A DNA stretch of 64,000 bases, from positions 372,001 through 436,000 of the forward strand of contig NZ_JPRO01000001.1 in NCBI RefSeq assembly GCF_000737785.1, in the 5' to 3' direction. The notes below the pieces were generated by a model, which worked only from the letters and a program-made list of their open reading frames with translations, ran no database searches and was not told where the DNA came from. The translations under genes were made by a program, and so were the position numbers. Source of the stretch: Chryseobacterium luteum (GTDB lineage Bacteria; Bacteroidota; Bacteroidia; Flavobacteriales; Weeksellaceae). Positions 2-51,494 of this stretch are shown in pieces (within the stretch, counting starts at the first letter, position 1; each line of letters starts with the position of its first letter).

Positions 2-1558
2 GATAATCAGAAGATCGTAGAAAAGATCAATTCCTTAAAAGCTGTTGAAATGCGGCTGGAATCTATTGAAGGAATTAAAAACAATATCGTTATCAACGAT
101 TCCTTTAATCTGGATCTGGATTCCCTGAAAACAGCCCTTCAGTTCCTGAATGAATATAAAAAATCTAAAAAATCTTTGGTTTTAACGGATATCGTAGGCG
201 TTAATTCCAATTCTGAAGAACTCTACGAAGAAGTTTCCGAACTGGTGAATGACCAGAATTTCGATTCAGTATTCCTTATCGGCGATGAAATATCAAATTT
301 TAGTGATTTATTTAAATCTAAAACTTCCACTTTCGTCAATACCCAGGAATTAATTGAAAGTAAACATCTTACAGAAATTGAAAACCAGATCATCCTGCTT
401 AAAGGAGCAAGAAAATTCGAGATCGAAAAGCTTAAAGATATTCTTGAACTCAGAAAGCACGATACCGTTCTGGAGATTAATCTGAATGCGATCCTTCATA
501 ACATCAACTATCACAAATCCCTGCTGAAGCCGGGAACGAAAATGATGGCGATGGTAAAAGCCAATGCTTACGGATTGGGCAGCTACGAAATTTCCGAATT
601 TTTACAGCATCATCACATTGATTATCTGGGTGTTGCCTATGCAGATGAAGGTATAGAACTCCGTAAAAAAGGAATTACCACTCCTATTGTGGTCATGAAT
701 CCTGAACAGCACAGCTATGAAGCCATCATTGAATATAACCTGGAACCTGAAATTTACAGTTTCAGGGTTTTAGATTTATTTTATGAGGCCGTTCAGAAAT
801 CCGGGTATGATAAAAAATACCCTATTCATATCAAAATTGAGACAGGGATGCACCGTCTTGGTTTTAAAGATTTTGAATTGGATGAGCTAAGTGAAGCTTT
901 AAATCATAAAAATGTAAAGGTTCAGAGCCTGTTCAGTCACTTATCCTCTTCCGATATGCCTGAAGAAAGGGAATTTACATTCAGGCAACTGGAGGTTTTT
1001 GAAAAGAATTCCAATTATCTTATCGAAAAGCTGGGCTACACCCCTATCCGGCATGTTCTGAATTCTTCCGGAATAACAAGTTATACTGAACATCAGTATG
1101 ATATGGTAAGAATAGGAATCGGAATGATCGGTGAATCACCATGCAGTGAAATACAAAAACAGCTTCAGTCTGTGGTAAGCTTTAAAACCGTAATTTCACA
1201 GATATCAACTGTTGATACCGGAGAGTCTGTAGGCTACAGCAGAAAATATAAACCTGATCATGCTGCAAGGATTGCTACAATTCCCGTAGGTTATGCAGAC
1301 GGGATCCCCAGACTGATAGGAAATCAGGTTGGAAATGTAGGAGTCAACAAAATACTGGCTCCTATTGTAGGAAATATCTGTATGGACATGATGATGATCA
1401 ATGTAGATCAGATTCCCTATGTAAAGGAAGGTGATACGGTCACCGTTTTTAATGCAAAACCAAGTTTAAAAGAATTCGCAGGCTACTGCAAAACGATAAC
1501 CTATGAAGTGTTAACCTCCATTTCGCCCCGGGTGAAACGGATTTATATAAAAGACTAG
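2..1558 (+). CDS. alr: MurF-alanine racemase fusion, 3' part (5' end outside window)
   Basis: The frame is open from base 2 with no stop, and the ATG at 50 lies inside the protein, so this is the 3' part of a longer gene. The first ~130 residues resemble the C-terminal domain of MurF (UDP-MurNAc-tripeptide:D-Ala-D-Ala ligase). The rest is a complete PLP-dependent alanine racemase, which makes D-alanine for peptidoglycan. Visible racemase marks are the PLP-lysine motif MVKANAYGLG (Lys codon at 557-559), the NSSGI segment, VRIGIGMIG and the catalytic-tyrosine motif VGYSRKY. The MurF-Alr fusion is usual in Bacteroidota, where full length is about 800 residues. It stops 2 bp before the patatin gene, which suggests cotranscription. 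Confidence 0.93.
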   Translation, partial: DNQKIVEKINSLKAVEMRLESIEGIKNNIVINDSFNLDLDSLKTALQFLNEYKKSKKSLVLTDIVGVNSNSEELYEEVSELVNDQNFDSVFLIGDEISNFSDLFKSKTSTFVNTQELIESKHLTEIENQIILLKGARKFEIEKLKDILELRKHDTVLEINLNAILHNINYHKSLLKPGTKMMAMVKANAYGLGSYEISEFLQHHHIDYLGVAYADEGIELRKKGITTPIVVMNPEQHSYEAIIEYNLEPEIYSFRVLDLFYEAVQKSGYDKKYPIHIKIETGMHRLGFKDFELDELSEALNHKNVKVQSLFSHLSSSDMPEEREFTFRQLEVFEKNSNYLIEKLGYTPIRHVLNSSGITSYTEHQYDMVRIGIGMIGESPCSEIQKQLQSVVSFKTVISQISTVDTGESVGYSRKYKPDHAARIATIPVGYADGIPRLIGNQVGNVGVNKILAPIVGNICMDMMMINVDQIPYVKEGDTVTVFNAKPSLKEFAGYCKTITYEVLTSISPRVKRIYIKD

Positions 1559-1560
1559 TT

Positions 1561-3717
1561 ATGAGAAAACTCCTGATCCTTCTCTTCGCATTCCAACTCC
1601 TGATGATCCATTCTCAAGTGAAAAAGGATCTGGTCATACCAAAAAATCCAAGAATCGGTCTTTCGCTTGCCGGGGGCGGTGCCAAAGGTTTTTCACACGT
1701 TGGAGTACTGAAGGTATTGGATTCATTGGGAGTAAAAATTGATTATATTTCCGGAACGAGTATGGGAGCTATTGTAGGCGGCCTGTATGCCTCAGGATAT
1801 TCCGGAAAAGAAATAGAGAAGATCGTAATGGATACCGATTTCTATTCCCTGATCATGGATCCCAAATCCAGACAGGAATCTTCTTTCTTTAATAAATCCG
1901 TGGATAAATATCTTTTATCCATTCCTCTGAAAAACGGAAAAATATCCCTACCCTCCTCTATAAGCTCAGGACAGAGAAATGTATATCTCCTGAAGGAACT
2001 TTTTAAAAATGTTTCCAATATTAATGATTTCTCCAAATTACCGATCCCTTTTATGTGTGTAGCCACCAATCTGGAAAGCGGCAACATGCAAATCTTTGAA
2101 AAGGGAGACCTCGTACAGTCAATTATGGCAAGCTCTGCATTTCCTTCCCTTATGGATCCTGTAAAAATAGGCGATAGTATTTATATAGACGGAGCGATGA
2201 CGGTAAACTACCCCTCAAAGCCTTTAAAGGACAAAGGAATTGATATCGTGATCGGCGTGGACCTTAACCAGGATTTATCAAAAAGAGAGGATTTAAACAA
2301 TATTATTTCGATCCTTAACCAGGTCATCGATTTTGGTATTAAGCGAGACACCAGGAAACAGTACAAATACACGGATATCAACATCAAGCCTAATCTTAAA
2401 GGGATGACTGCCACCAGCTACGATGACAAGAAAAAAATTCTCGACAGCGGTTATGTAGAAGGTATGAAATATACAGGAATACTCGATCAGCTTCCAAAAC
2501 GGCAGTTTGACCGTCTCAGAGAGCGTGTAAACCCAATATATTCCAATGTTTACAAAATAGACAGCATTTCATTGGACGGAGGCAGAATTTACGGTAAAAA
2601 CTACGTCTTAGGGAAAATGGGACTACGGCTCCCTTCTATGCAAACCTACGGCTCTATCAACAAAAAAATTGACAAGCTGGTTGCAACCAATAATTACCGC
2701 TTCATTAATTATGACATCATTCCGGAAAATGATGCCAGCTACCTTAAACTTTACGTTACAGAAGATGAAGCACGCCATTTCTTAAAAGTCGGACTGCACT
2801 ATGATGAAGTATTCAAGACAGGTCTTCTTCTTAATTATTCCGGAAAACGTCTTTTATTTAAAAATTCAAACCTTTCACTGGACGTTGTCATAGGTGATAA
2901 ACCAAGATATTATCTGAATTATTTTATCGATAACGGATATATTCCGGGCTTTGGTATTTATTCTTCCGGAATGAGCTTCGATCTGAAAAATGTAGACAAT
3001 AATATTGCGGATAAATGGGAATGGTTCCGGAATGAAGCCTTTATACAATCTGTCTGGAAAGATAAATTTGCCGTTGGCGGCGGAATAAGTCATGATTATT
3101 TCGGAGCGGAAATAAATGGCCAGCATGAACGCTATATGCGCTTTTTAAATCCTTATGTATTCTTAAAAAGTGATACCCAAAATGACAAAGACTTCCCTTC
3201 CCGTGGTATTTATATCAATGCAGAAGGTAAAGTAATCGATCTTTTGAAATCTGAGATTGAAAAAAGAATCATACAGGTAAAAGCAGATATCAGGATTAAT
3301 GTTCCTCTTTCAAAACAATTTTCCTATCGCCTTAATCTGTATGGCGGTGTTACAATTGGTGACGACCTTCCGGAATTTTACCAGTATAGGCTGGGTGGCG
3401 TTTTTGAGCAGAATATAATCAACTTCAAAGGTTTTGGAGGATTCTATTTTGCCCAGCTTAATGCCAATAACGTCGTTCTTATTTCCAATGATATTCAGTT
3501 TAAATTCAATAAAAACTATTTCCTAAGCGGGAATTTTAGCTTTGCCAATCTTTCGGATGATATTAATTTTGAAGATGCAGTTAAAGTAAATTATAGTTCA
3601 GTAGGACTTACTGCGGGATACAAATCTCCGTTCGGGCAGATTAAGATCAATTTTAGCCACTCACTTAAAAACAATCAAAAAGGCATATTCAGTGTTATTT
3701 TAGGACACTGGTTTTAA
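1561..3717 (+). CDS. Patatin-like phospholipase with outer-membrane barrel (type Vd-like)
   Basis: 718 residues with an N-terminal signal peptide (about 1-18). The patatin domain spans about residues 30-235. It shows the oxyanion loop GGGAKG (38-43), the nucleophile elbow GTSMG with Ser67, and the DGA motif carrying the catalytic Asp near residue 210. A POTRA-like stretch (about 330-400) and a BamA/Omp85-type beta-barrel follow to the C-terminus. This architecture is that of PlpD-type (type Vd) autotransporters. The likely role is lipid acyl hydrolysis at the outer membrane or cell surface; the substrate is unknown. It sits between alr and ybeY with 2- and 4-bp gaps, so an operon is likely. 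Confidence 0.85.
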   Translation: MRKLLILLFAFQLLMIHSQVKKDLVIPKNPRIGLSLAGGGAKGFSHVGVLKVLDSLGVKIDYISGTSMGAIVGGLYASGYSGKEIEKIVMDTDFYSLIMDPKSRQESSFFNKSVDKYLLSIPLKNGKISLPSSISSGQRNVYLLKELFKNVSNINDFSKLPIPFMCVATNLESGNMQIFEKGDLVQSIMASSAFPSLMDPVKIGDSIYIDGAMTVNYPSKPLKDKGIDIVIGVDLNQDLSKREDLNNIISILNQVIDFGIKRDTRKQYKYTDINIKPNLKGMTATSYDDKKKILDSGYVEGMKYTGILDQLPKRQFDRLRERVNPIYSNVYKIDSISLDGGRIYGKNYVLGKMGLRLPSMQTYGSINKKIDKLVATNNYRFINYDIIPENDASYLKLYVTEDEARHFLKVGLHYDEVFKTGLLLNYSGKRLLFKNSNLSLDVVIGDKPRYYLNYFIDNGYIPGFGIYSSGMSFDLKNVDNNIADKWEWFRNEAFIQSVWKDKFAVGGGISHDYFGAEINGQHERYMRFLNPYVFLKSDTQNDKDFPSRGIYINAEGKVIDLLKSEIEKRIIQVKADIRINVPLSKQFSYRLNLYGGVTIGDDLPEFYQYRLGGVFEQNIINFKGFGGFYFAQLNANNVVLISNDIQFKFNKNYFLSGNFSFANLSDDINFEDAVKVNYSSVGLTAGYKSPFGQIKINFSHSLKNNQKGIFSVILGHWF

Positions 3718-3721
3718 TACA

Positions 3722-4141
3722 ATGATACAATTCTTTTACGAAAATTTACAGGAATCTGTGAGTACAGATTATCAGAAATGGCTGGAAGATATTATTCTTT
3801 CAGAAGAAAAAAAACTAGGCGAAATCAATTATATTTTCTGTGATGACGAGTATCTGCTGAAGATCAACCAGGATTATCTGCAGCATGATTATTATACCGA
3901 TATCATCACTTTCGATTATGTAAAAGGGAAAACAATAAGCGGGGAGATTTTCGTATCTTTGCAACGAATTTCGGACAACTCCTCTACTCTGGCCAAGGAT
4001 TATGAAGAAGAATTAAAAAGGGTTCTTGCCCATGGTATCCTTCACCTTGCAGGGTACAAAGACAAGACGGAAGAGGAAGAGAAAGAGATGCGGAGAATGG
4101 AAGATCTTTATTTAGCTAAGTTTAAGGAATTGAATCCTTAA
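3722..4141 (+). CDS. ybeY: Endoribonuclease YbeY, rRNA maturation factor
   Basis: 139 residues, normal for YbeY, a single-strand metallo-endoribonuclease in 16S rRNA 3' maturation and ribosome quality control. The zinc motif is seen as HGILHLAGYKD, with His104, His108 and Asp114. The usual third ligand is His, and Asp at that place is the form I associate with Bacteroidota homologs. The acidic run after it (EEEEKEM) is also typical. It starts 4 bp after the patatin stop and is probably the last gene of that operon. Confidence 0.93.
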   Translation: MIQFFYENLQESVSTDYQKWLEDIILSEEKKLGEINYIFCDDEYLLKINQDYLQHDYYTDIITFDYVKGKTISGEIFVSLQRISDNSSTLAKDYEEELKRVLAHGILHLAGYKDKTEEEEKEMRRMEDLYLAKFKELNP

Positions 4142-4199
4142 TAAATTGAAGAATCACTTAAAGAATAATATGTAAAGTATTCAATTATAGCAACAATAA

Positions 4200-4216
4200 A
4201 CGCTCATGTGGAGCGT
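4200..4216 (+). other. Short GC-rich hairpin after ybeY
   Basis: A 6-bp perfect stem (ACGCTC / GAGCGT) with a 5-base loop lies 58 bp after ybeY. No T-tract follows, so a terminator role is doubtful. It lies just before the first parS palindrome. Confidence 0.3.
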
Positions 4217-4220
4217 ATTC

Positions 4221-4252
4221 TCTATAAATGTTTCACGTGAAACATTTATAGA
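4221..4252. promoter_or_regulatory. parS centromere site, upstream of mnmG
   Basis: A perfect 32-bp palindrome whose 16-bp core at 4229-4244 is TGTTTCACGTGAAACA. This is identical to the consensus parS bound by ParB, which nucleates the partition complex near the replication origin. The perfect symmetry continues eight bases on each side of the core. It lies in the 150-bp gap before mnmG, and a second copy follows mnmG. Confidence 0.9.
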
Positions 4253-4291
4253 AAACAGTATAATTAAAGGCTTTAAATAAGCAATATAAAA

Positions 4292-6154
4292 ATGATTTCA
4301 GATATATATGATGTAATTGTAGTAGGTGCCGGACATGCAGGTTGTGAAGCCGCTGCTGCCGCTGCGAACCTTGGTTCAAAGACCCTGCTTCTTACAATGA
4401 ATATGCAGACCATCGGACAGATGAGCTGCAACCCGGCAATGGGAGGAATCGCAAAAGGACAGATCGTAAGAGAGATTGATGCTATGGGAGGATACTCCGG
4501 AATTGTAGCAGATAAATCCGCCATCCAGTTCAAAATGCTGAACCTTTCCAAAGGCCCCGCGATGTGGTCTCCAAGAACCCAAAACGACAGAATGCTTTTT
4601 GCAGAAGAATGGAGACTCGCTTTAGAAAATACACCCAATCTTGATTTCTTTCAGGATATGGTGAAACAGCTTATTGTAGAAAATAATCAGGTAACCGGAG
4701 TTATTACTTCTTTAGGAATTGAGATTAAAAGTAAATCGGTTGTTTTGACCAACGGAACATTTCTTAATGGATTAATTCATGTTGGAGATAAACAACTAGG
4801 CGGTGGAAGAATGGGCGAACCCAGAGCATTCGGAATTACTGAACAATTGGTAGGTTTAGGTTTTGAAGCCGGAAGAATGAAAACAGGAACCCCTCCCCGT
4901 GTAGACGGAAGAAGTCTTGATTATTCTAAAATGGAAGAACAGAAAGGAGATGAAAATCCTCAAAAGTTCAGCTATACGGATACTCCGAAATTAGTAAAAC
5001 AACTAAGTTGTCATATCGTTTATACCAATGAAACGGTACATGATATTTTACGTGAAGGTTTCGACAGAAGCCCAATGTTCAATGGTACGATCCAGAGCTT
5101 AGGACCAAGATACTGTCCAAGTATTGAAGATAAGATCAACCGTTTTGCAGAAAGAACAAGACACCAGCTTTTTGTAGAACCGGAAGGATGGAAAACTGTT
5201 GAGATCTACGTAAACGGATTCAGCTCTTCTCTTCCGGAAGACGTACAGCTCAAAGCCATGAAGCATATTCCCGGTTTTGAAAATGTAAAAGTATTCCGTC
5301 CAGGCTACGCTATTGAGTATGATTACTTCCCTCCTACCCAGTTAAAGCATACCCTTGAAACAAAACTGATCGGTAATTTATATTTTGCAGGACAGATCAA
5401 CGGAACTACAGGATATGAAGAAGCTGCAGGGCAAGGATTAATCGCCGGAATCAATGCCCACAATAAAGTACACGGAAAAGAAGATTTTATTCTGAACAGA
5501 GATGAAGCTTATATCGGAGTATTAATCGACGATTTGATTACAAAAGGAACTGAAGAGCCTTATAGAATGTTCACTTCCCGTGCAGAATACAGGCTTTTAT
5601 TAAGACAGGACAATGCAGATATCAGACTAACCGAGAAAGCGTACCATTTAGGTCTTGCCACAGAAGACAGATTAAGGAAAGTTGAAACGAAAATAGCTAA
5701 GAGTCAGGAACTTGAAGAGTTTTTAAGAGAAACTTCTTTAAAACCGGGTATTATCAATCCGATATTGGAAACCATTGAAAGTAACCCTGTAGATCAGGCT
5801 TACAGAGCGGCACAGTTCCTTACCAGACCGAATATTACATTGGAAAAACTTGATACTATTGATGCCATCAGAGAATTTTCTTCAAAATATGATGATGAAG
5901 TAAGAGAACAGGCAGAAATCAATATCAAATACAAAGGCTATATTGAAAAGGAAAAAGAAAACGTAGCAAAACTTAACCGTCTGGAAAATATAAAAATTCC
6001 GGAAGATTTTGATTATAAAAGTCTTTCCAGTCTTTCTTCAGAGGCAAAACAGAAAATGTCCAATGTAAGACCGAAAACTATTGCACAGGCAGGCAGGATC
6101 AGTGGTGTTTCTCCTGCCGATATAAACGTTTTACTGGTGTATATAGGACGTTAA
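4292..6154 (+). CDS. mnmG: tRNA uridine-5-carboxymethylaminomethyl modification enzyme MnmG
   Basis: 620 residues, full length for MnmG/GidA. With MnmE and an FAD cofactor it builds the (carboxymethyl)aminomethyl group at C5 of wobble U34 in several tRNAs. The N-terminal Rossmann motif is [12 protein letters not shown] (about 10-21). Family signatures [12 protein letters not shown] and [16 protein letters not shown] are intact, and the helical C-terminal domain is complete. The gene stands alone, framed by two parS sites. In many bacteria gidA/mnmG lies near the origin, which fits the candidate origin about 3 kb downstream. Confidence 0.97.
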
Positions 6155-6159
6155 ATCAA

Positions 6160-6181
6160 AAATGTTTCACGTGAAACATTT
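6160..6181. promoter_or_regulatory. parS centromere site, downstream of mnmG
   Basis: The 16-bp core TGTTTCACGTGAAACA at 6163-6178 is identical to the copy upstream of mnmG and symmetric for three more bases on each side. The outer flanks differ from the first copy, so it is not part of a longer duplicated segment. It begins 5 bp after the mnmG stop. Confidence 0.9.
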
Positions 6182-7582: not shown

Positions 7583-8773
7583 TTATTTATTGATAGCAGC
7601 AATTCCCGGAAGTTCCAAACCTTCCAGACTTTCAAGCATCGCTCCTCCTCCTGTAGAAACATAACTTACTTTTTCATCATAACCGAACTGCTTTACAAAA
7701 GCAACACTGTCACCACCTCCTACTAAAGAGAAAGCTCCTAGTTTTGTTGCTTCAGCAATGCTGTCTCCCAAAGCAACTGTTCCGCCTGAAAAGTTTGACA
7801 TTTCAAAAACTCCGATCGGTCCGTTCCAAAGAATTGTTCTTGAATTAAGAAGCACATCATTGAACTGGTCTCTCGATTTATGACCTGCATCAAGTCCCAT
7901 CCATCCTTCAGGGATAGAATAGATATCCGACTCTTTTCTTTCAGCATCGTTATTGAAAGCTTCCGCAATGATAACATCTGAAGGAAGATATACTTTAACA
8001 TTATTTTCTTTAGCCTTACCTAAGATCTCAAGGGCCAAAGGAAGCTTATCCTCTTCTACCAGTGAGTTCCCGATTTTTCCGCCTAAAGCTTTAATAAAAG
8101 TAAATGCCATACCTCCACCAATGATCAGATTATCTATGGCCGGAAGTATATTTTCTATAATGGTAATTTTAGTTGAAACTTTAGAACCCCCAAGTATCGC
8201 AGTCACAGGCTTTTCTCCTTTCCTCAAAACTCTATCAATCGCCTGAAGTTCTTTAGCCATCAGTAAACCGAAAAATTTAGTTGATTCAAAATACTGAGCT
8301 ATAACTGCTGTAGAAGCGTGTGCTCTGTGAGCTGTACCGAATGCATCATTCACAAAAGCATCTCCAAGTTTTGAAAGCTTTTCAGCAAATCCTGCGTCAC
8401 CCTTTTCCTCTTCATTGTGAAAACGAAGATTTTCCAACAATAAGATTTCACCAGGCTGAAGTTCAGAAGCAGCTTTTTCAGCCTTTTCTCCGATACACTC
8501 ATCTACAAACTTAACTTCTTTTCCTAAAACAGCGGAAACTTCATTTACAATATGCTTAAGAGAGAATTCATCTTTTACCTCGCCTTTCGGTCTCCCAAGA
8601 TGGGTCATTAAAATTACAGAACCTCCGTCATTAAGAATTTTTTCAACCGTAGGTTTTACAGCCGATATTCTTGTATTATCTGTCACTTTAAGCTGATCAT
8701 CCTGCGGAACATTGAAGTCCACTCTTACCAGAGCTTTCTTGTCTTTAAAATTGAAATCATTGATTGTTTTCAT
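7583..8773 (-). CDS. pgk: Phosphoglycerate kinase
   Basis: 396 residues, full length. It catalyses 1,3-bisphosphoglycerate + ADP to 3-phosphoglycerate + ATP in glycolysis. Seen are the N-terminal [10 protein letters not shown] motif, the substrate-binding HLGRPKG region, the GGSKVSTK segment, and the C-terminal nucleotide-binding [10 protein letters not shown] and STGGGAMLE. It has its own promoter element and terminator. Its coding strand is clearly G-rich over C (for example 5 G/19 C on the plus strand at 7621-7680). This fits leading-strand placement on the left side of an origin at about 9 kb. Confidence 0.97.
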
Positions 8774-9327
8774 AAATATCTTTGAATTTTCGTTTCACAA
8801 ATGTAAGCTTTTAAACATTTTCAAAGGAACCAATAAAACAAAACTTTTTGAAAACTTTCCCCCAACCCAATCACCCACTAATCAACAATTTTTTCTCTTT
8901 ATAAGAAAAGAATAATGTAGTTGTTGTTGAGTATTGTTAGTTTCGGGGATAAGTTTTATCAAAATAATTGGTAACAAATAATTTTTATTCAATTCATATT
9001 TAATTCACATTGTAATATCTTGTAAATCTGCCTTTTCACAGACTTATCAACAGATGTGGGTAACTTTGCCATAAAGCGATTATTAGTTATTTAATTATGG
9101 AAAAACTTTGGATTAAGTGGAGAGAACATTTTGAAAGTTGTGGTTAAAATTTTCAAATACATTTCCCATTACGAAATAAATTCATCTTTAAAAATAGAAA
9201 GTTGGAAAAAGTTTTCCACAGTTATTCACATACCTCTTCACAAATTACTAGGGATTAACTAACAGACTTTGTTATTATTCTTACCTTTGTCATGAAATAA
9301 AATCTAAAAAGACTTAATACAAGTATT
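8774..9327. other. Candidate chromosomal replication origin (oriC)
   Basis: A 554-bp gap between diverging pgk and rpiB. It holds several DnaA-box-like 9-mers: TTATTCACA (9222-9230, matches TTATNCACA), TTTTCCACA (9212-9220), TTATCAACA (9044-9052) and, on the other strand, TTACCCACA (9055-9063). TTTTCACA (9033-9040) and TCTTCACA (9235-9242) are weaker. A very AT-rich tract at about 8950-9020 could unwind. Plus-strand composition flips inside it: 3 G/19 C at 8821-8880, then 10 G/4 C at 8881-8940. The two parS sites lie 3-5 kb away. dnaA itself is not in the window. Confidence 0.5.
8798..8805 (-). promoter_or_regulatory. -7 promoter element of pgk
   Basis: On the minus strand this reads TACATTTG, a match to the Bacteroidota -7 element TAnnTTTG, 24 bp before the pgk start codon. 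A TTTG about 16 bp further upstream could be the -33 element. Confidence 0.5.
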
Positions 9328-9762
9328 ATGAAAAGAAAAATAGCTATTGCTGCAGACCATGCAGGCTATGAGTACAAAGAGATTGTTAAGAACTATCTGT
9401 CAGAACGTTTTGATGTTCAGGATTTTGGAACGTTTTCCACAGACAGTGTGGATTATCCGGACTTTGTTCACCCAGCTGCAACATCCGTGGAAAACGGTGA
9501 AAATGAACTTGGAATATTAATTTGCGGAAGTGGAAACGGGGTTCAGATCACTGCAAACAAACATCAGAAGATCAGATGCGCCCTTTGCTGGATGCCTGAG
9601 ATTGCTGTACTGGCAAGACAGCATAATGATGCGAACATGATATCAATACCGGCAAGATTTATCTCTAAGGAACTAGCCATAGAAATTGCTGAAAAATTTC
9701 TTTCCACAGACTTTGAAGGAGGAAGACACCAGACCAGAGTAGACAAAATTGCTGTTTGCTAA
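9328..9762 (+). CDS. rpiB: Ribose-5-phosphate isomerase B
   Basis: 144 residues, complete. RpiB interconverts ribose 5-phosphate and ribulose 5-phosphate in the pentose phosphate pathway. Seen are the N-terminal AADHAGYEYKE, the DFGTFSTDSVDYPDF phosphate-binding stretch and the active-site Cys motif ILICGSGNG, which with NKHQKIRCALCW typifies the RpiB/LacAB fold. Two more TTTCCACA-type 9-mers occur in the gene (9433-9441, 9700-9708). A TACCTTTG promoter element lies at 9282-9289, so transcription would start inside the candidate origin. Confidence 0.93.
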   Translation: MKRKIAIAADHAGYEYKEIVKNYLSERFDVQDFGTFSTDSVDYPDFVHPAATSVENGENELGILICGSGNGVQITANKHQKIRCALCWMPEIAVLARQHNDANMISIPARFISKELAIEIAEKFLSTDFEGGRHQTRVDKIAVC

Positions 9763-23745: not shown

Positions 23746-25542
23746 ATGAAAAACATACGAAATTTTTGCATAATCGCTCATATTGACCACGGTAAAAGTA
23801 CTTTGGCAGACCGTCTTTTGGAGTATACCAACACAGTTACTCAGAGAGAGCTGCAGTCTCAGACCCTGGATGATATGGATTTGGAGAAAGAACGCGGGAT
23901 CACCATCAAGTCTCACGCGATCCAGATGGATTATGAGTATAAAGGAGAAAAATATATCTTAAATCTTATTGATACACCGGGACACGTAGACTTTTCTTAC
24001 GAGGTTTCCCGTTCTATTGCTGCCTGTGAAGGCGCACTTCTTATTGTAGATGCTGCACAGAGTATCCAGGCACAGACCATCAGTAATCTTTACCTGGCAT
24101 TAGAAAATGATTTGGAAATTATTCCGATTCTGAATAAGATAGACCTTCCATCTGCAAACCCCGAAGAAGTTACCGATGAAATTATGGGACTTTTGGGCTG
24201 TAAATATGAAGATGTTCTTAGAGTTTCCGGAAAAACAGGTGAAGGGGTTCATGATCTGCTTGAGCAGATTGTCAACAGAATTCCTGCTCCCGTTGGAGAT
24301 CCGAAAGCGCCTCTTCAGGCATTGATATTTGATTCTGTTTACAACCCGTTCAGAGGGATTGAAGCGTATTTCAAAGTAGTAAACGGAAGTATTTCTAAAA
24401 ACGAGAAAATCAAATTTTTCGCTACAGGAAAAGAATACGGTGCAGATGAAGTAGGAACTTTAAAACTGAAACAGGTTCCGAAAAAGATAATTGAATGTGG
24501 TGATGTAGGTTACATTATTTCCGGGATTAAAGATGCAAGAGAAGTGAAAGTGGGTGATACCATTACCTCTTTTGTGAATCCTGCCGATGCTGCGATTGAC
24601 GGTTTTGAAGAAGTAAAGCCAATGGTTTTTGCCGGAATTTATCCTATTGAATCTGAAGATTTTGAAGAATTAAGATTCTCACTTGAAAAATTAAGACTGA
24701 ATGATGCTTCTCTGGTTTTCGAACCTGAGAGTTCTGCAGCACTTGGTTTCGGTTTCCGTTGCGGATTCTTGGGAATGCTTCACATGGAAATCGTACAGGA
24801 ACGTCTTGAGAGAGAATTTGATATGAACGTAATTACTACGGTTCCCAACGTTTCATATCACGGATTTTCTAAGAAAGATCCTGAAACCGCAATTTTAATC
24901 AACAACCCATCAGAAATGATTGATCCCAATCTTTTGGATAGGGTTGAAGAACCGTATATAAAGGCTTCCATTATTACTAAATCCGATTTCGTAGGTGCTG
25001 TAATGACCCTTTGTATCGAAAAAAGAGGGGAGATTGTCAACCAAAGTTATTTAACGGCAGACAGGGTAGAATTGACATTCAATATGCCTTTGGCAGAAGT
25101 TGTTTTCGACTTTTACGACCGTCTGAAATCCATTTCTAAGGGATATGCGTCATTTGATTATTCACCAATCGGAATGCGTTCTTCCAAATTGGTTAAAATG
25201 GATATTCTGATCAACGGAGATATGGTAGATGCTTTATCATCATTGATTCACGACAGTAATGCTTATTATATCGGTAAAAAGATGTGTGAAAAACTTCGTG
25301 AACTGATCCCCAGACAGCAGTTTGATATTGCAGTTCAGGCAGCGTTGGGAGCGAAAGTTATCGCCAGAGAAACCATTAAGGCATTAAGAAAAGACGTTAC
25401 CGCAAAATGTTACGGAGGAGATATTTCCAGAAAGAGAAAACTTCTTGAAAAACAGAAAGAAGGTAAAAAGAAAATGAAGCAGATTGGTAGAGTAGAAGTA
25501 CCGCAGTCAGCGTTCATGGCAGTATTAAAACTAAACGATTAA
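23746..25542 (+). CDS. lepA: Elongation factor 4 (LepA), ribosome back-translocase GTPase
   Basis: 598 residues, full length. The G domain shows AHIDHGKST (G1), RGITIKS (G2), DTPGHVDF (G3) and NKIDLP (G4). Domains II, III and V follow, and the LepA-specific C-terminal domain ends [21 protein letters not shown]. LepA/EF4 acts on stalled or assembling ribosomes. The gene is single, with its own promoter and terminator. Its G over C excess on the coding strand is marked (15 G/4 C at 24481-24540). Confidence 0.97.
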
Positions 25543-48383: not shown

Positions 48384-49766
48384 ATGTCATTAATAAAATC
48401 TATTTCAGGGATCAGAGGGACAATCGGCGGAAAAGTAAATGATAACTTGACGCCTCTGGATGTAGTGAAATTTGCATCTGCGTTCGGAACCTGGCTTCAG
48501 AATACACAGAATAAAAAGAATTTAACCCTGGTCATAGGAAGAGACGCCAGAATTTCCGGGGAAATGGTTTCCTCTCTGGTTAGTGCAACTTTACAGGGTC
48601 TTGGGATCAATGTTGTTGATTTAGGACTTTCCACCACTCCGACTGTCGAAATAATGGTTCCGGAACTGAAAGCAGACGGAGGAATCATTCTTACCGCTTC
48701 CCACAATCCAAAACAGTGGAATGCTCTTAAGCTGCTGAACGGCAAAGGAGAATTCATCAGCGGAGATGACGGGGCAAAAGTCCTTGCTCTGGCTGAAAGT
48801 GAAGATTTCAATTACGCAGAAGTGGATGACCTTGGAAAATATGAAACAAGAGATGATGCTTTTGATATTCATATTCAGCAGATTTTAGAATTACCGATGG
48901 TAGATGTTGAAGCCATTAAAGCTAAAAAATTCAAAATCGTTCTCGATGCCGTAAATTCTACAGGAGGAATTGCAATTCCAATGCTGCTGGACAAATTGGG
49001 CTGCGAGACTATAAAATTATACTGCGAACCGAACGGACAGTTCCCACACAACCCTGAACCTTTGAAAGAGCATTTGGGAGATATCTGTGAGCTTGTAAAA
49101 AAAGAAAGTGCAGATGTAGGAATTGTTGTAGATCCGGATGTAGACAGATTGGCCTTAATTGATGAAAAAGGCGAAATGTTCGGGGAAGAATATACCCTGG
49201 TTGCCGTAGCAGATTATTTACTGAAACATAAAAAAGGCGTTGCTGTGTCAAACCTTTCTTCAAGCCGTGCATTGAGAGATGTTGCCAGAAGCCACGATTC
49301 AGAATACTTTGCCAGTGCTGTAGGAGAAGTGAACGTAGTAAACCTTATGAAAGAGAAAAATGCTGTGATCGGAGGAGAAGGAAACGGAGGAATTATCTAT
49401 CCTGACCTTCATTATGGAAGAGATTCTTTGGTAGGTGCTGCATTGTTCTTAACCCATCTAGCAAAAGAAAACAAAACAGTTTCCCAGCTGAGAGCCGGAT
49501 ATCCGGAATATTTCATGGGTAAAAAGAAGATAGAGCTTACCCCGGAGATTAATGTAGATGATATTTTAGCCAAAATGGAAAAAGAATATCAGAATGAAGA
49601 AGTTTCCACGGTAGATGGCGTTAAGATCGACTTTGAAAAGAACTGGGTGCATCTGAGAAAATCCAATACGGAACCCATCATCAGAATCTACACCGAGGCC
49701 CACTCACAGGAAGAAGCCGATAAGCTTGGAGATGATATTATTGCTAAAATCAAATCTTTAATTTAA
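48384..49766 (+). CDS. glmM: Phosphoglucosamine mutase
   Basis: 460 residues, the normal size for the phosphohexomutase family. The phosphoserine motif is TASHNPKQWNALK (Ser near 100), the Mg loop VDPDVDRLAL (DxDxD near 250), the sugar-binding GEGNGGI near 335 and the phosphate-binding RKSNTEPIIRIYTEA near 425. It converts glucosamine-6-phosphate to glucosamine-1-phosphate for UDP-GlcNAc. Related enzymes with phosphomannomutase activity look similar; assignment to GlmM follows the motif set, with moderate certainty. Confidence 0.85.
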   Translation: MSLIKSISGIRGTIGGKVNDNLTPLDVVKFASAFGTWLQNTQNKKNLTLVIGRDARISGEMVSSLVSATLQGLGINVVDLGLSTTPTVEIMVPELKADGGIILTASHNPKQWNALKLLNGKGEFISGDDGAKVLALAESEDFNYAEVDDLGKYETRDDAFDIHIQQILELPMVDVEAIKAKKFKIVLDAVNSTGGIAIPMLLDKLGCETIKLYCEPNGQFPHNPEPLKEHLGDICELVKKESADVGIVVDPDVDRLALIDEKGEMFGEEYTLVAVADYLLKHKKGVAVSNLSSSRALRDVARSHDSEYFASAVGEVNVVNLMKEKNAVIGGEGNGGIIYPDLHYGRDSLVGAALFLTHLAKENKTVSQLRAGYPEYFMGKKKIELTPEINVDDILAKMEKEYQNEEVSTVDGVKIDFEKNWVHLRKSNTEPIIRIYTEAHSQEEADKLGDDIIAKIKSLI

Positions 49767-49805: not shown

Positions 49806-50111
49806 ACAGAAATTTACTTTCAAAAATTCTCTGAAAATTTGATAAAAAACAGGCCTGGAGTGTCGGAATTATGAGTGGCAAAAGACTCGCTGTGATTATT
49901 TAACCACAATTTCCGTTTTTTATCCACAATCCTTTTATCTCTTTTCTTTTTTTACTATCTTTAATATAGAAATTTATGAAAAATTAATTCAAAAAAAAGT
50001 TGCAACTTTGCATAAACATTTGAATTTCAGTTTCAGAGGTTATTATTAATTAATAAAGTTTGCCGAGGTTTGTAAGTATATTCAGACATCGGGCCGACAA
50101 AGACAACACTA
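49806..50111. other. 306-bp gap with DnaA-box-like 9-mers
   Basis: No gene. TTATCCACA (49920-49928), a perfect consensus DnaA box, and TTAACCACA (49900-49908) lie 20 bp apart. A TTTGC motif at about 50008-50012 could belong to the promoter of the TPR gene. The rest is AT-rich with nothing else seen. Confidence 0.4.
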
Positions 50112-51494
50112 TTGGAAGAGTATTTTGGAAATGAACTTGTAAAAAAGTTCGAGGAAATGATGGAAAATAATGATGAATTCTACTTCGATACCGAAGAGTT
50201 AGAAGACATTATTGTTTATTATTTGGAGCTGGGTGATTTTAACTACGCAGACAATGCCGTTAACTATGGCCTGAAGCTTCATCCCAATTCATTGGATATC
50301 AAGATCAAAAGACTTGAGATTCTTTTGGAATGGGAAGATTATAATACCGCAAAAGAACTCATTGACGAACTAAAAGGCTCATCAATGGAAAATACAGACT
50401 TTATGGTCTGCTACGCGAAGTATTATTCGAACCTGGGAAACCCCAGAAAAGCCATTGACATCTGCAAAAAAGCTTTAGAACTGCAGGAAGAAGAGAACTT
50501 CCTTCACAACTTTATTGCAGACGAATATGTAAATTTGGGAGACCCCTTTAACGCTCTTAAACATTACAGAAAAGCTCTGAAAGAAGATCCTACGGATGAA
50601 TATTCACTTGAAAACTGTATGATCTGTTTCAGCGACCTGAATAAGAGCGAGGAGGCTATTGCCTTTCTTAATGAATATTTAGATGAATTTGCCTATTCCG
50701 AAACCGCATGGTTCGAATACGGACAGTTCTACTTCAACAGAAAGAATTATGAAGAAGCCATAAAAGGATATGATTATCTGCTGGCCATTAATTCAAGTTC
50801 TGTAGGAGTATATGCTAACAAAGCAGCATGCTACGAAGCCTTAGGACAATATCAGAAGGCAGTAGAAGTATATGAGGAAATGCTTGAGCTTGAATATACC
50901 AAAGCATTTACATTTTACAAGATAGGATTGTGTTATAAAGCACAGAAACAGTCCATAATGGCACTTAATGCATTCCAGAGATCGTTGAGAGAAGACCCGC
51001 AGTTTTATCTTGCGATGATGGAGCAGTCTTATCTGTATGAAGAAATGGGAGGTATGAAAGAAGCGCTGCATTTTGCAATAGAAGCCACCCAGCTCAATGA
51101 CAGTAACCTTGACTATCAGAAAAGGCTGGCGTTTCTGTTAATTGATTCCGGAAAATTTGAAGAAAGCCTTTCCTGCCTGAAAAAGCTGGTGGATGCCGAA
51201 CCTTCAAGATTTTACAACTGGTATGCCTATTCAGAAGTACTGATGCTTCTTGGAGAATATGAAGAAGCAGTAACTATTCTGAACAACGCCATCAAGGTAC
51301 ATGACAGAGCTGAACTTTATTATCAGCTCAGCAACTGTTATTTCAATCTGAGAAATCCGGAAAAAGGGACAGAATCCCTTCAGAAAGCTTTAAGCATAGA
51401 TTCATCTCTGGCTACGGATATGCAGAAGAAATATCCCTTTATTAAAGATGAGGTGAAGAAAGTCAAAGCCAAAGTGAAAAAGAAAAATTCTTAG
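50112..51494 (+). CDS. Tetratricopeptide repeat protein, cytoplasmic
   Basis: 460 residues from a TTG at 50112 (N-terminus then EEYFGNELVKKFEEMMENNDE); an internal ATG 15 codons later would lose the conserved-looking start. About ten TPR units of 34 residues fill the protein (for example ALKHYRKALKEDPTDEYSL and EEAVTILNNAIKVHDRAELYYQLSNCYFNL). There is no signal peptide. The C-terminus is Lys-rich. It is probably a scaffold in protein complexes; the partner is unknown. Confidence 0.75.
   Translation: MEEYFGNELVKKFEEMMENNDEFYFDTEELEDIIVYYLELGDFNYADNAVNYGLKLHPNSLDIKIKRLEILLEWEDYNTAKELIDELKGSSMENTDFMVCYAKYYSNLGNPRKAIDICKKALELQEEENFLHNFIADEYVNLGDPFNALKHYRKALKEDPTDEYSLENCMICFSDLNKSEEAIAFLNEYLDEFAYSETAWFEYGQFYFNRKNYEEAIKGYDYLLAINSSSVGVYANKAACYEALGQYQKAVEVYEEMLELEYTKAFTFYKIGLCYKAQKQSIMALNAFQRSLREDPQFYLAMMEQSYLYEEMGGMKEALHFAIEATQLNDSNLDYQKRLAFLLIDSGKFEESLSCLKKLVDAEPSRFYNWYAYSEVLMLLGEYEEAVTILNNAIKVHDRAELYYQLSNCYFNLRNPEKGTESLQKALSIDSSLATDMQKKYPFIKDEVKKVKAKVKKKNS

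Follow-up and report, generated by a model that had tools for sequence, protein, structure and literature searches.

The gap between the divergent pgk and rpiB genes is very probably the chromosomal origin, far from dnaA, of a Chryseobacterium-type genome

The window analysed in this study covers 64 kb of contig C1 (bases 372001-436000); the draft genome to which it belongs comprises 49 contigs and 4.71 Mb. Judged by rpiB, its nearest relatives with a name are Chryseobacterium species. Near its left end, a 554-bp gap (8774-9327) separates the divergent genes pgk (7583-8773, minus strand) and rpiB (9328-9762, plus strand). The pgk side of the gap carries alr, a gene for a patatin-like protein, ybeY, mnmG and a gene for a methyltransferase-like protein, and the rpiB side carries one further ORF and then rnr. 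Transcription from alr to mnmG (50-6154) runs towards the putative origin, head-on to a leftward fork, and mnmG has a parS site on both sides. An Rfam scan of 8500-9600 returned one sub-threshold match only, and the single-strand DNA fold of 8840-8960 has a z of -2.43 (3/200 shuffles). The features of the locus are collected in Table 1.

We compared the locus with 80 named loci, and the gap alignment holds the window and 71 of the 80. It omits L078, L079, L080, L084 and L109, which have a long insert, and L087, L103, L105 and L112, which have no adjacent pgk. The close set (50 gaps) consists of the window and 49 loci (up to L083, and L092), and the distant set of 22 loci from L085 on, including Chryseobacterium, Epilithonimonas, Kaistella, Bergeyella and Soonwooa as well as MAG records. 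A further 29 pgk loci represent 27 other genera plus two named Riemerella species. L234 was omitted as a repeat of L233.

Table 1. Features of the pgk-rpiB locus and its surroundings, in window coordinates
Feature	Position	Strand	Sequence or remark
parS copy 1, between ybeY and mnmG	4229..4244		exact TGTTTCACGTGAAACA
parS copy 2, just after mnmG	6163..6178		exact TGTTTCACGTGAAACA
Very probable oriC region between divergent pgk and rpiB	8774..9327		box cluster, skew switch, nearby parS, kept as a block
TAnnTTTG promoter-like -7 element for pgk	8798..8805	-	TACATTTG
C-rich left arm of the putative opening element	8851..8888		TAATCAACA at 8879-8887; inverted repeats I6, I7
AT-rich T-tract/A-tract centre, candidate unwinding start	8889..8921		T-tract then A-tract in 25/25 gaps inspected; split in E. 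mollis
CTCAACAACA, AACAACA core where DnaA-trios are expected	8922..8931	-	AACAACA in 68/72 gaps
Degenerate tandem second DnaA box	8935..8943	-	AAACTAACA; from tandem-box tables; weak in the window itself
DnaA box, right-arm anchor	8944..8952	-	TTATCCCCG (2 mismatches); at most 2 mismatches in 72/72 gaps
DnaA box	9044..9052	+	TTATCAACA; at most 2 mismatches in 55/72 gaps
DnaA box, inverted relative to the 9044 box	9055..9063	-	TTACCCACA; at most 2 mismatches in 63/72 gaps
DnaA box-like 9-mer	9139..9147	-	TTAACCACA; within one mismatch of TTATCCACA
DnaA box	9212..9220	+	TTTTCCACA; at most 2 mismatches in 72/72 gaps
DnaA box	9222..9230	+	TTATTCACA; at most 2 mismatches in 49/72 gaps, 47 of these close-set
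TAnnTTTG promoter-like element for rpiB	9282..9289	+	TACCTTTG

The initial annotation had proposed an origin in this gap, with a skew minimum elsewhere named beforehand as one observation that would speak against it. The skew sampled in two congeners left the proposal standing, with coarse fits about 80-200 kb off. The sampling covered two complete congeners only, G042 and G075, as 20-kb stretches round each chromosome; the halves and the fit of G075 use 38 of its 40 samples, the two beside the gap being omitted. In the orientation of rpiB, the skew of G042 is positive in 18/20 samples on the rpiB side and negative in 18/20 on the pgk side, and coding direction follows the skew (0.64 vs 0.42). 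The skew of G075 is positive in 14/18 samples on the rpiB side, the other 4/18 having the wrong sign, and negative in 17/20 on the pgk side. The cumulative skew maximum lies about opposite the gap (relative position 0.45-0.48). Tiling of G042 near the gap (1702 kb) shows the switch at the gap, with values of -0.096 and -0.106 at 1650-1690 kb (-0.106 at 1670-1690 kb), -0.027 in the stretch containing the gap, and +0.038 to +0.082 in eight stretches to its right up to 1885 kb (+0.042 at 1710-1725 kb). The stretches of the wrong sign lie at 1590-1630 kb and 1890-1910 kb. The coarse step fit gives 1505-1620 kb in G042, with a 5-95% range that begins 255 kb and ends 25 kb to the left of the gap and so leaves the gap just outside, and 3540-3670 kb in G075, with a range of -111 to +545 kb relative to the gap; the two fits miss the gap by about 80-200 kb (about 150 kb in G075), on opposite sides. 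The fit and the cumulative minimum of G042 are displaced leftwards from the gap by about 80-200 kb because 1590-1630 kb, a block of plus-strand genes, is positive. In the draft genome itself, all seven samples left of the window are negative, the 8.9 kb adjoining the gap on the left have a skew of about zero, and the five 11-kb bins right of the gap are positive (the last 100-base bin of the window was dropped). Further along the contig, the samples at 436-456 and 480-500 kb are negative, whereas that at 540-560 kb is positive. The negative-to-positive change expected at an oriC is seen in the samples of both congeners, and in tiled G042 it falls at the gap.

The DnaA-box-like 9-mers described earlier for the gap were confirmed, and they form a cluster well above chance. 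Five of them (9044+, 9055-, 9139-, 9212+ and 9222+) have at most one mismatch to TTATCCACA, against a mean of 0.26 in dinucleotide shuffles of the gap, none of 2000 of which reaches five, and a window average of 0.25 boxes per 554 bp. The pgk-rpiB locus is the densest box cluster of the window, with seven boxes in 554 bp, including two inside rpiB. A scan for 600-bp clusters over 2.28 Mb, made up of the window and 111 further stretches, ranks the pgk-rpiB loci of the window's genome and of G075 as the two densest and the G042 locus as the fourth. The conservation of the individual boxes (Table 1) is to be read against a background, at up to two mismatches, of 3-4% on average per position and strand, with single other positions reaching 96% in the close set and 64% in the distant set. 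The box at 8944 has two mismatches in 50/50 close-set gaps, and the same site is TTATCCACA in several other genera. An inverted pair of DnaA-like boxes is found at 9433-9455 within the rpiB coding sequence. The AT-rich, easily melted tract that had been noted is present as well, and its weakest spot at the 50-bp scale (8955-9004) belongs to the weakest 0.23% of window positions; it is not the weakest duplex of the window, ten places elsewhere being weaker.

A parS pair had been placed 3-5 kb from the gap. The pair does lie nearby, as two perfect 16-mers at a distance of 2.6-4.5 kb. These are the two exact parS 14-mers of the genome (window 4230 and 6164), which also has a one-mismatch 14-mer outside the window, 2.5 kb beyond its left end (C1:369541). 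The 21 complete genomes of congeners together hold 41 exact 16-mers, all 3.5-8.7 kb from rpiB and none elsewhere, with two copies in 20/21 genomes and one in 1/21, and exact parS is present in 134/197 genomes of the wider family. The arrangement is like that of a ParB-parS segregation system in having exact parS 16-mers beside the origin, but unlike it in that the window has only two exact copies, 1.9 kb apart, flanking mnmG.

The flip of G and C within the gap, which had been read as the skew inversion of an origin, is exact in its counts (3 G/19 C at 8821-8880 and 10 G/4 C at 8881-8940), and no other place in the window reaches this contrast (45 bp left vs 60 bp right; best split at about 8899). 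The reading as replichore skew was ruled out, since the flip extends over only about 50 bp on either side of 8904. In the mean of the 72 gaps, the excess of G over C per 20-bp bin amounts to -6.6 at -50 and -4.6 at -30 from 8904, and to +5.8 at +10 and +6.1 at +30, with the neighbouring bins at about zero. C exceeds G at -50 to -31 in 72/72 gaps and at -30 to -11 in 71/72, and G exceeds C at both +10 to +29 and +30 to +49 in 72/72; the stretch 8951-9327 of the window holds 46 G and 50 C. The flip is a conserved local element and no change of replichore; it probably marks the unwinding element. The excess of C over G reported to the left is likewise real and local. The companion argument from a G-rich lepA to the right fails: lepA (23746-25542) lies 14 kb from the gap, and little can be read from its G-richness, since alr to mnmG, left of the gap, are also G-rich, being on the same strand as lepA. 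Over about 100 bp, the element runs from the C-rich left arm through a T-tract, an A-tract and TGTTGTTG to a G-rich right arm with a minus-strand DnaA box. The AACAACA core falls on the minus strand within 8915-8934 in the gaps that have it, and 8922-8928 form seven consecutive columns, each at least 95% conserved.

This element can be compared with the basal unwinding system (BUS) of the Bacillus subtilis oriC and its relatives known from bioinformatics, for which the published layout is a box, a tandem box, a spacer and a repeat, with at least three NAN trios within 16 bp of the box (PMC8287927). The same paper suspects that deviant trios exist (PMC8287927), and in B. subtilis the middle base of the trio is recognised via its amino group (PMC10721633). 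Like the BUS, the window has a DnaA box, a candidate weaker tandem box, a short spacer and a repeated short motif running into AT-rich DNA, and the distance from the box to CTCAACAACA is 12 nt, inside the published limit of 16. Read leftwards from the right arm, the window gives TTATCCCCG, AAACTAACA, ATA and CTCAACAACAACTACATTATT, and L093 gives TTATCCACA, TTTTCCACA, G and CTACAACAACATCATTC. Unlike in the BUS, the repeat in these gaps is CT(C/A)AACAACA-like. A first box with at most two mismatches is found in 72/72 gaps, and a second box with at most four mismatches in 64/72 at the best of five offsets, a count without a chance control. Three or more middle-A (NAN) trios 0-16 bp behind the right-arm box are found in 0/50 close and 0/22 distant gaps; shuffles of the bases behind the box give at least three in 137/360 cases. 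With any box of up to two mismatches in 8880-8953 as the anchor, the trio rule is passed by 2/50 close and 4/22 distant gaps. Several of these passes anchor on TTAACAACA, so AACAACA could be serving as a weak DnaA box in its own right; it may also be a separate motif read by another factor. The general BUS pattern, sought anywhere in the gap, is uninformative because most shuffles pass it (180/250 and 82/110 shuffled gaps, as well as 72/72 real ones); one such place in the window is the left-arm TAATCAACA with the T-tract. In the 29 other pgk loci, a run of at least three trios behind a box 150-180 bp from pgk was found in 10, some of them plain T-tracts; this search, less strict than that on the 72 gaps, accepts any box within 200 bp. 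The most trio-like are GTGCTAATAATA in G117, ATTATCATTATCATT in G115, ATATTACTA in G112 and ATTATCATA in G111, and G113 has CTATTATTACAACTATTATTATT behind its tandem box pair. We infer from these alignments that the element is BUS-like with a diverged repeat, one that keeps the box-spacer-repeat layout and drops the trio rule. The more trio-like relatives in outlying genera of the family make the change traceable and testable.

The block is conserved apart from its neighbouring genes. Divergent pgk and rpiB are kept in 76/80 named loci, with a gap of 547-892 bp in 71 and of 2145-2221 bp in five. The five long gaps have an ORF of 487-527 aa between the block and rpiB, and the block remains at pgk. 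The extra ORF is a DUF4139 gene in L080 (L080:8421-9992) and takes the same place in L078, L079, L084 and L109. Among the 29 other pgk loci, a strong block match is found in 21 and an absent or weak one (E 0.003 or worse) in eight. In nine loci rpiB is not within 1.5 kb of pgk, and 6/9 of these have a strong match; the six include R. anatipestifer, R. columbipharyngis and Bergeyella cardium, all three with perfect TTATCCACA boxes.

Epilithonimonas mollis DSM 18016 (L087, NZ_FRAM01000002.1) offers a natural split origin. Its rpiB (36.1-36.5 kb, minus strand) and pgk (92.4 kb, plus strand) are still divergent on one contig, and an insert of about 55 kb (about 37.1-92.3 kb; L087:1-9410 and L257-L260) parts the block at the AT-rich centre. 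The left arm is at pgk, and the AT centre, the right arm and the downstream boxes are together at rpiB. The insert is a conjugative element with CTnDOT-type TraG, TraM and TraJ homologues, a coupling protein, a relaxase and a topoisomerase; a tyrosine recombinase lies at the rpiB-side junction, and the two middle pieces have 42.7% G+C vs 36.4% in host DNA. Relatives of the integrase occur in 113/197 family genomes. Among 30 loci from the best-matching genomes, only L261, with an integrase identical to that of E. mollis, adjoins the origin block. The 14 integrase loci inspected end in AAAAAGATTA-type sequence beside varied, mostly AT-rich DNA, so the insertion at the origin looks like the one-off use of an AT-rich target. 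A literature search on integration in oriC gave no paper with an oriC phrase among the matches listed. Should E. mollis still initiate replication at this locus, the left arm would not be essential.

The sampled skew, the box cluster, parS, the conservation of the block and its persistence through rearrangements support an oriC between pgk and rpiB, and on this comparative evidence the gap is very probably the chromosomal origin of this Chryseobacterium-type genome. In the mechanism that we propose, DnaA from a distant locus would load at two places, the boxes at 9044-9230 and the right-arm pair (8935-8952). A DnaA oligomer would then grow leftwards across CTCAACAACA until it enters the AT-rich centre (8889-8921), which it would melt; helicases would be loaded at the melted centre, and forks would leave both ways, while ParB on the parS pair would separate the new origins. 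Opening is most likely directed by the right arm alone, with the left arm in an accessory role.

A different opening at the same origin, by two convergent DnaA assemblies that each occupy one arm of a dyad and each load one helicase, seems unlikely to us. It would fit the close set, in which the arms are imperfect inverted copies beyond local composition (z>2 in 45/50 with half-wise and in 41/50 with quarter-wise dinucleotide shuffles; 0/150 half-wise shuffles for the window itself), the inward-facing TAATCAACA and TACTCAACA that flank the AT centre, and the presence of the C-to-G flip in 71-72/72 gaps. However, the dyad of the distant set does not rise above composition-matched shuffles (z>2 in 2/22), and a profile of one arm hardly finds the other (at most 2/50 above 5 bits); arm profiles searched across the close and distant sets found next to nothing. 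The two arms of one genome match on average no better than arms across genomes, and the left arm of E. mollis lies about 55 kb away. The convergent-arm model is weakened. Whole-segment shuffles, which ignore the C-rich and G-rich halves, give z>2 in 18/23 gaps (23 of the 72 used) and in 62/72 gaps, and with this control seven of the 29 pgk-upstream loci also have z>2. We hold with similar reserve the broader proposal that the family has a variant opening element, in which the highly conserved CT(C/A)AACAACA-like motif replaces the DnaA-trios and which in Chryseobacterium forms a near-symmetric dyad whose inward-facing arms would co-open the centre, with one helicase per strand. If this doubtful proposal were true, dyad symmetry would explain the loading of the second helicase. 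A symmetric origin would be of interest because this loading is described as unclear in a paper that gives a DnaD-based proposal for B. subtilis (PMC10201434). The literature search on dyad symmetry with an unwinding element found no paper.

The gap could instead be no more than a promoter region shared by the divergent pgk and rpiB, with the boxes serving to regulate these genes through DnaA and the origin lying elsewhere. TAnnTTTG, a promoter-like -7 motif of Bacteroidota, is indeed found at both ends, within 80 bp of pgk in 36/72 gaps and within 90 bp of rpiB in 65/72, vs 7% and 5% of shuffles, respectively. The block, however, persists at pgk without rpiB in the six loci described above and stays mostly at rpiB without pgk in E. 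mollis. Such a reading also leaves the skew switch and parS unexplained, and we rejected it as very improbable.

An origin within the gap has to act at a distance from dnaA, which the initial annotation had rightly described as not adjacent. The gene is on another contig (C14) of the draft, and in the 21 complete genomes it lies 1.16-2.02 Mb from rpiB (rounded lengths), or 0.24-0.42 of the chromosome from the gap; in G063 (75% complete), one of the 21, the dnaA match is broken into sub-threshold pieces. dnaA-linked origins are the commonest arrangement, but an origin beside dnaA, with the gap as a DnaA-titrating (datA-like) site, is scarcely credible here, given this distance, a skew around dnaA in G042 that keeps its sign (3,230-3,460 kb all positive) and the few boxes at dnaA (at most one per 600 bp in the window's genome and at most two in G042).

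The preferred reading, an oriC between pgk and rpiB, has a possible counterpart in Elizabethkingia meningoseptica G4076, for which Ori-Finder predicted an oriC of 649 bp with three boxes and with dnaA 1.87 Mb away along the record (PMC8994065). The two are alike in being box-bearing and far from dnaA. That text names neither pgk nor rpiB, and its account of the prediction does not describe the unwinding element of the present locus, so identity of the two loci is not proven, and the E. meningoseptica oriC may be the same locus (PMC8994065). Predictions in DoriC are described as not always right (PMC13342612). A search for an experimental Chryseobacterium origin gave none by title or abstract among the matches listed, with subscription journals outside its scope. 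Knowing where a large genus probably has its origin, far from dnaA, would help in orienting genomes and in estimating replication rates from sequencing depth.

Several minor observations were made elsewhere in the sequences examined. L144 (G042 3565001-3585000) has no stop-bounded open frame of at least 150 codons in 20 kb, as if it were one giant gene. In the window, TTAACCACA and the only perfect TTATCCACA lie 20 bp apart at 49900-49928, between ORFs ending at 49766 and starting at 50112. G042 has a second box cluster (L122:6809-7385, at about 1.042 Mb) with six DnaA boxes, three of them perfect and five between ORFs, and this could possibly be a DnaA-titrating site. The 801-bp stretch of this second cluster has no match in the window's own genome, and 12/15 genomes match it, best in the ORF part.
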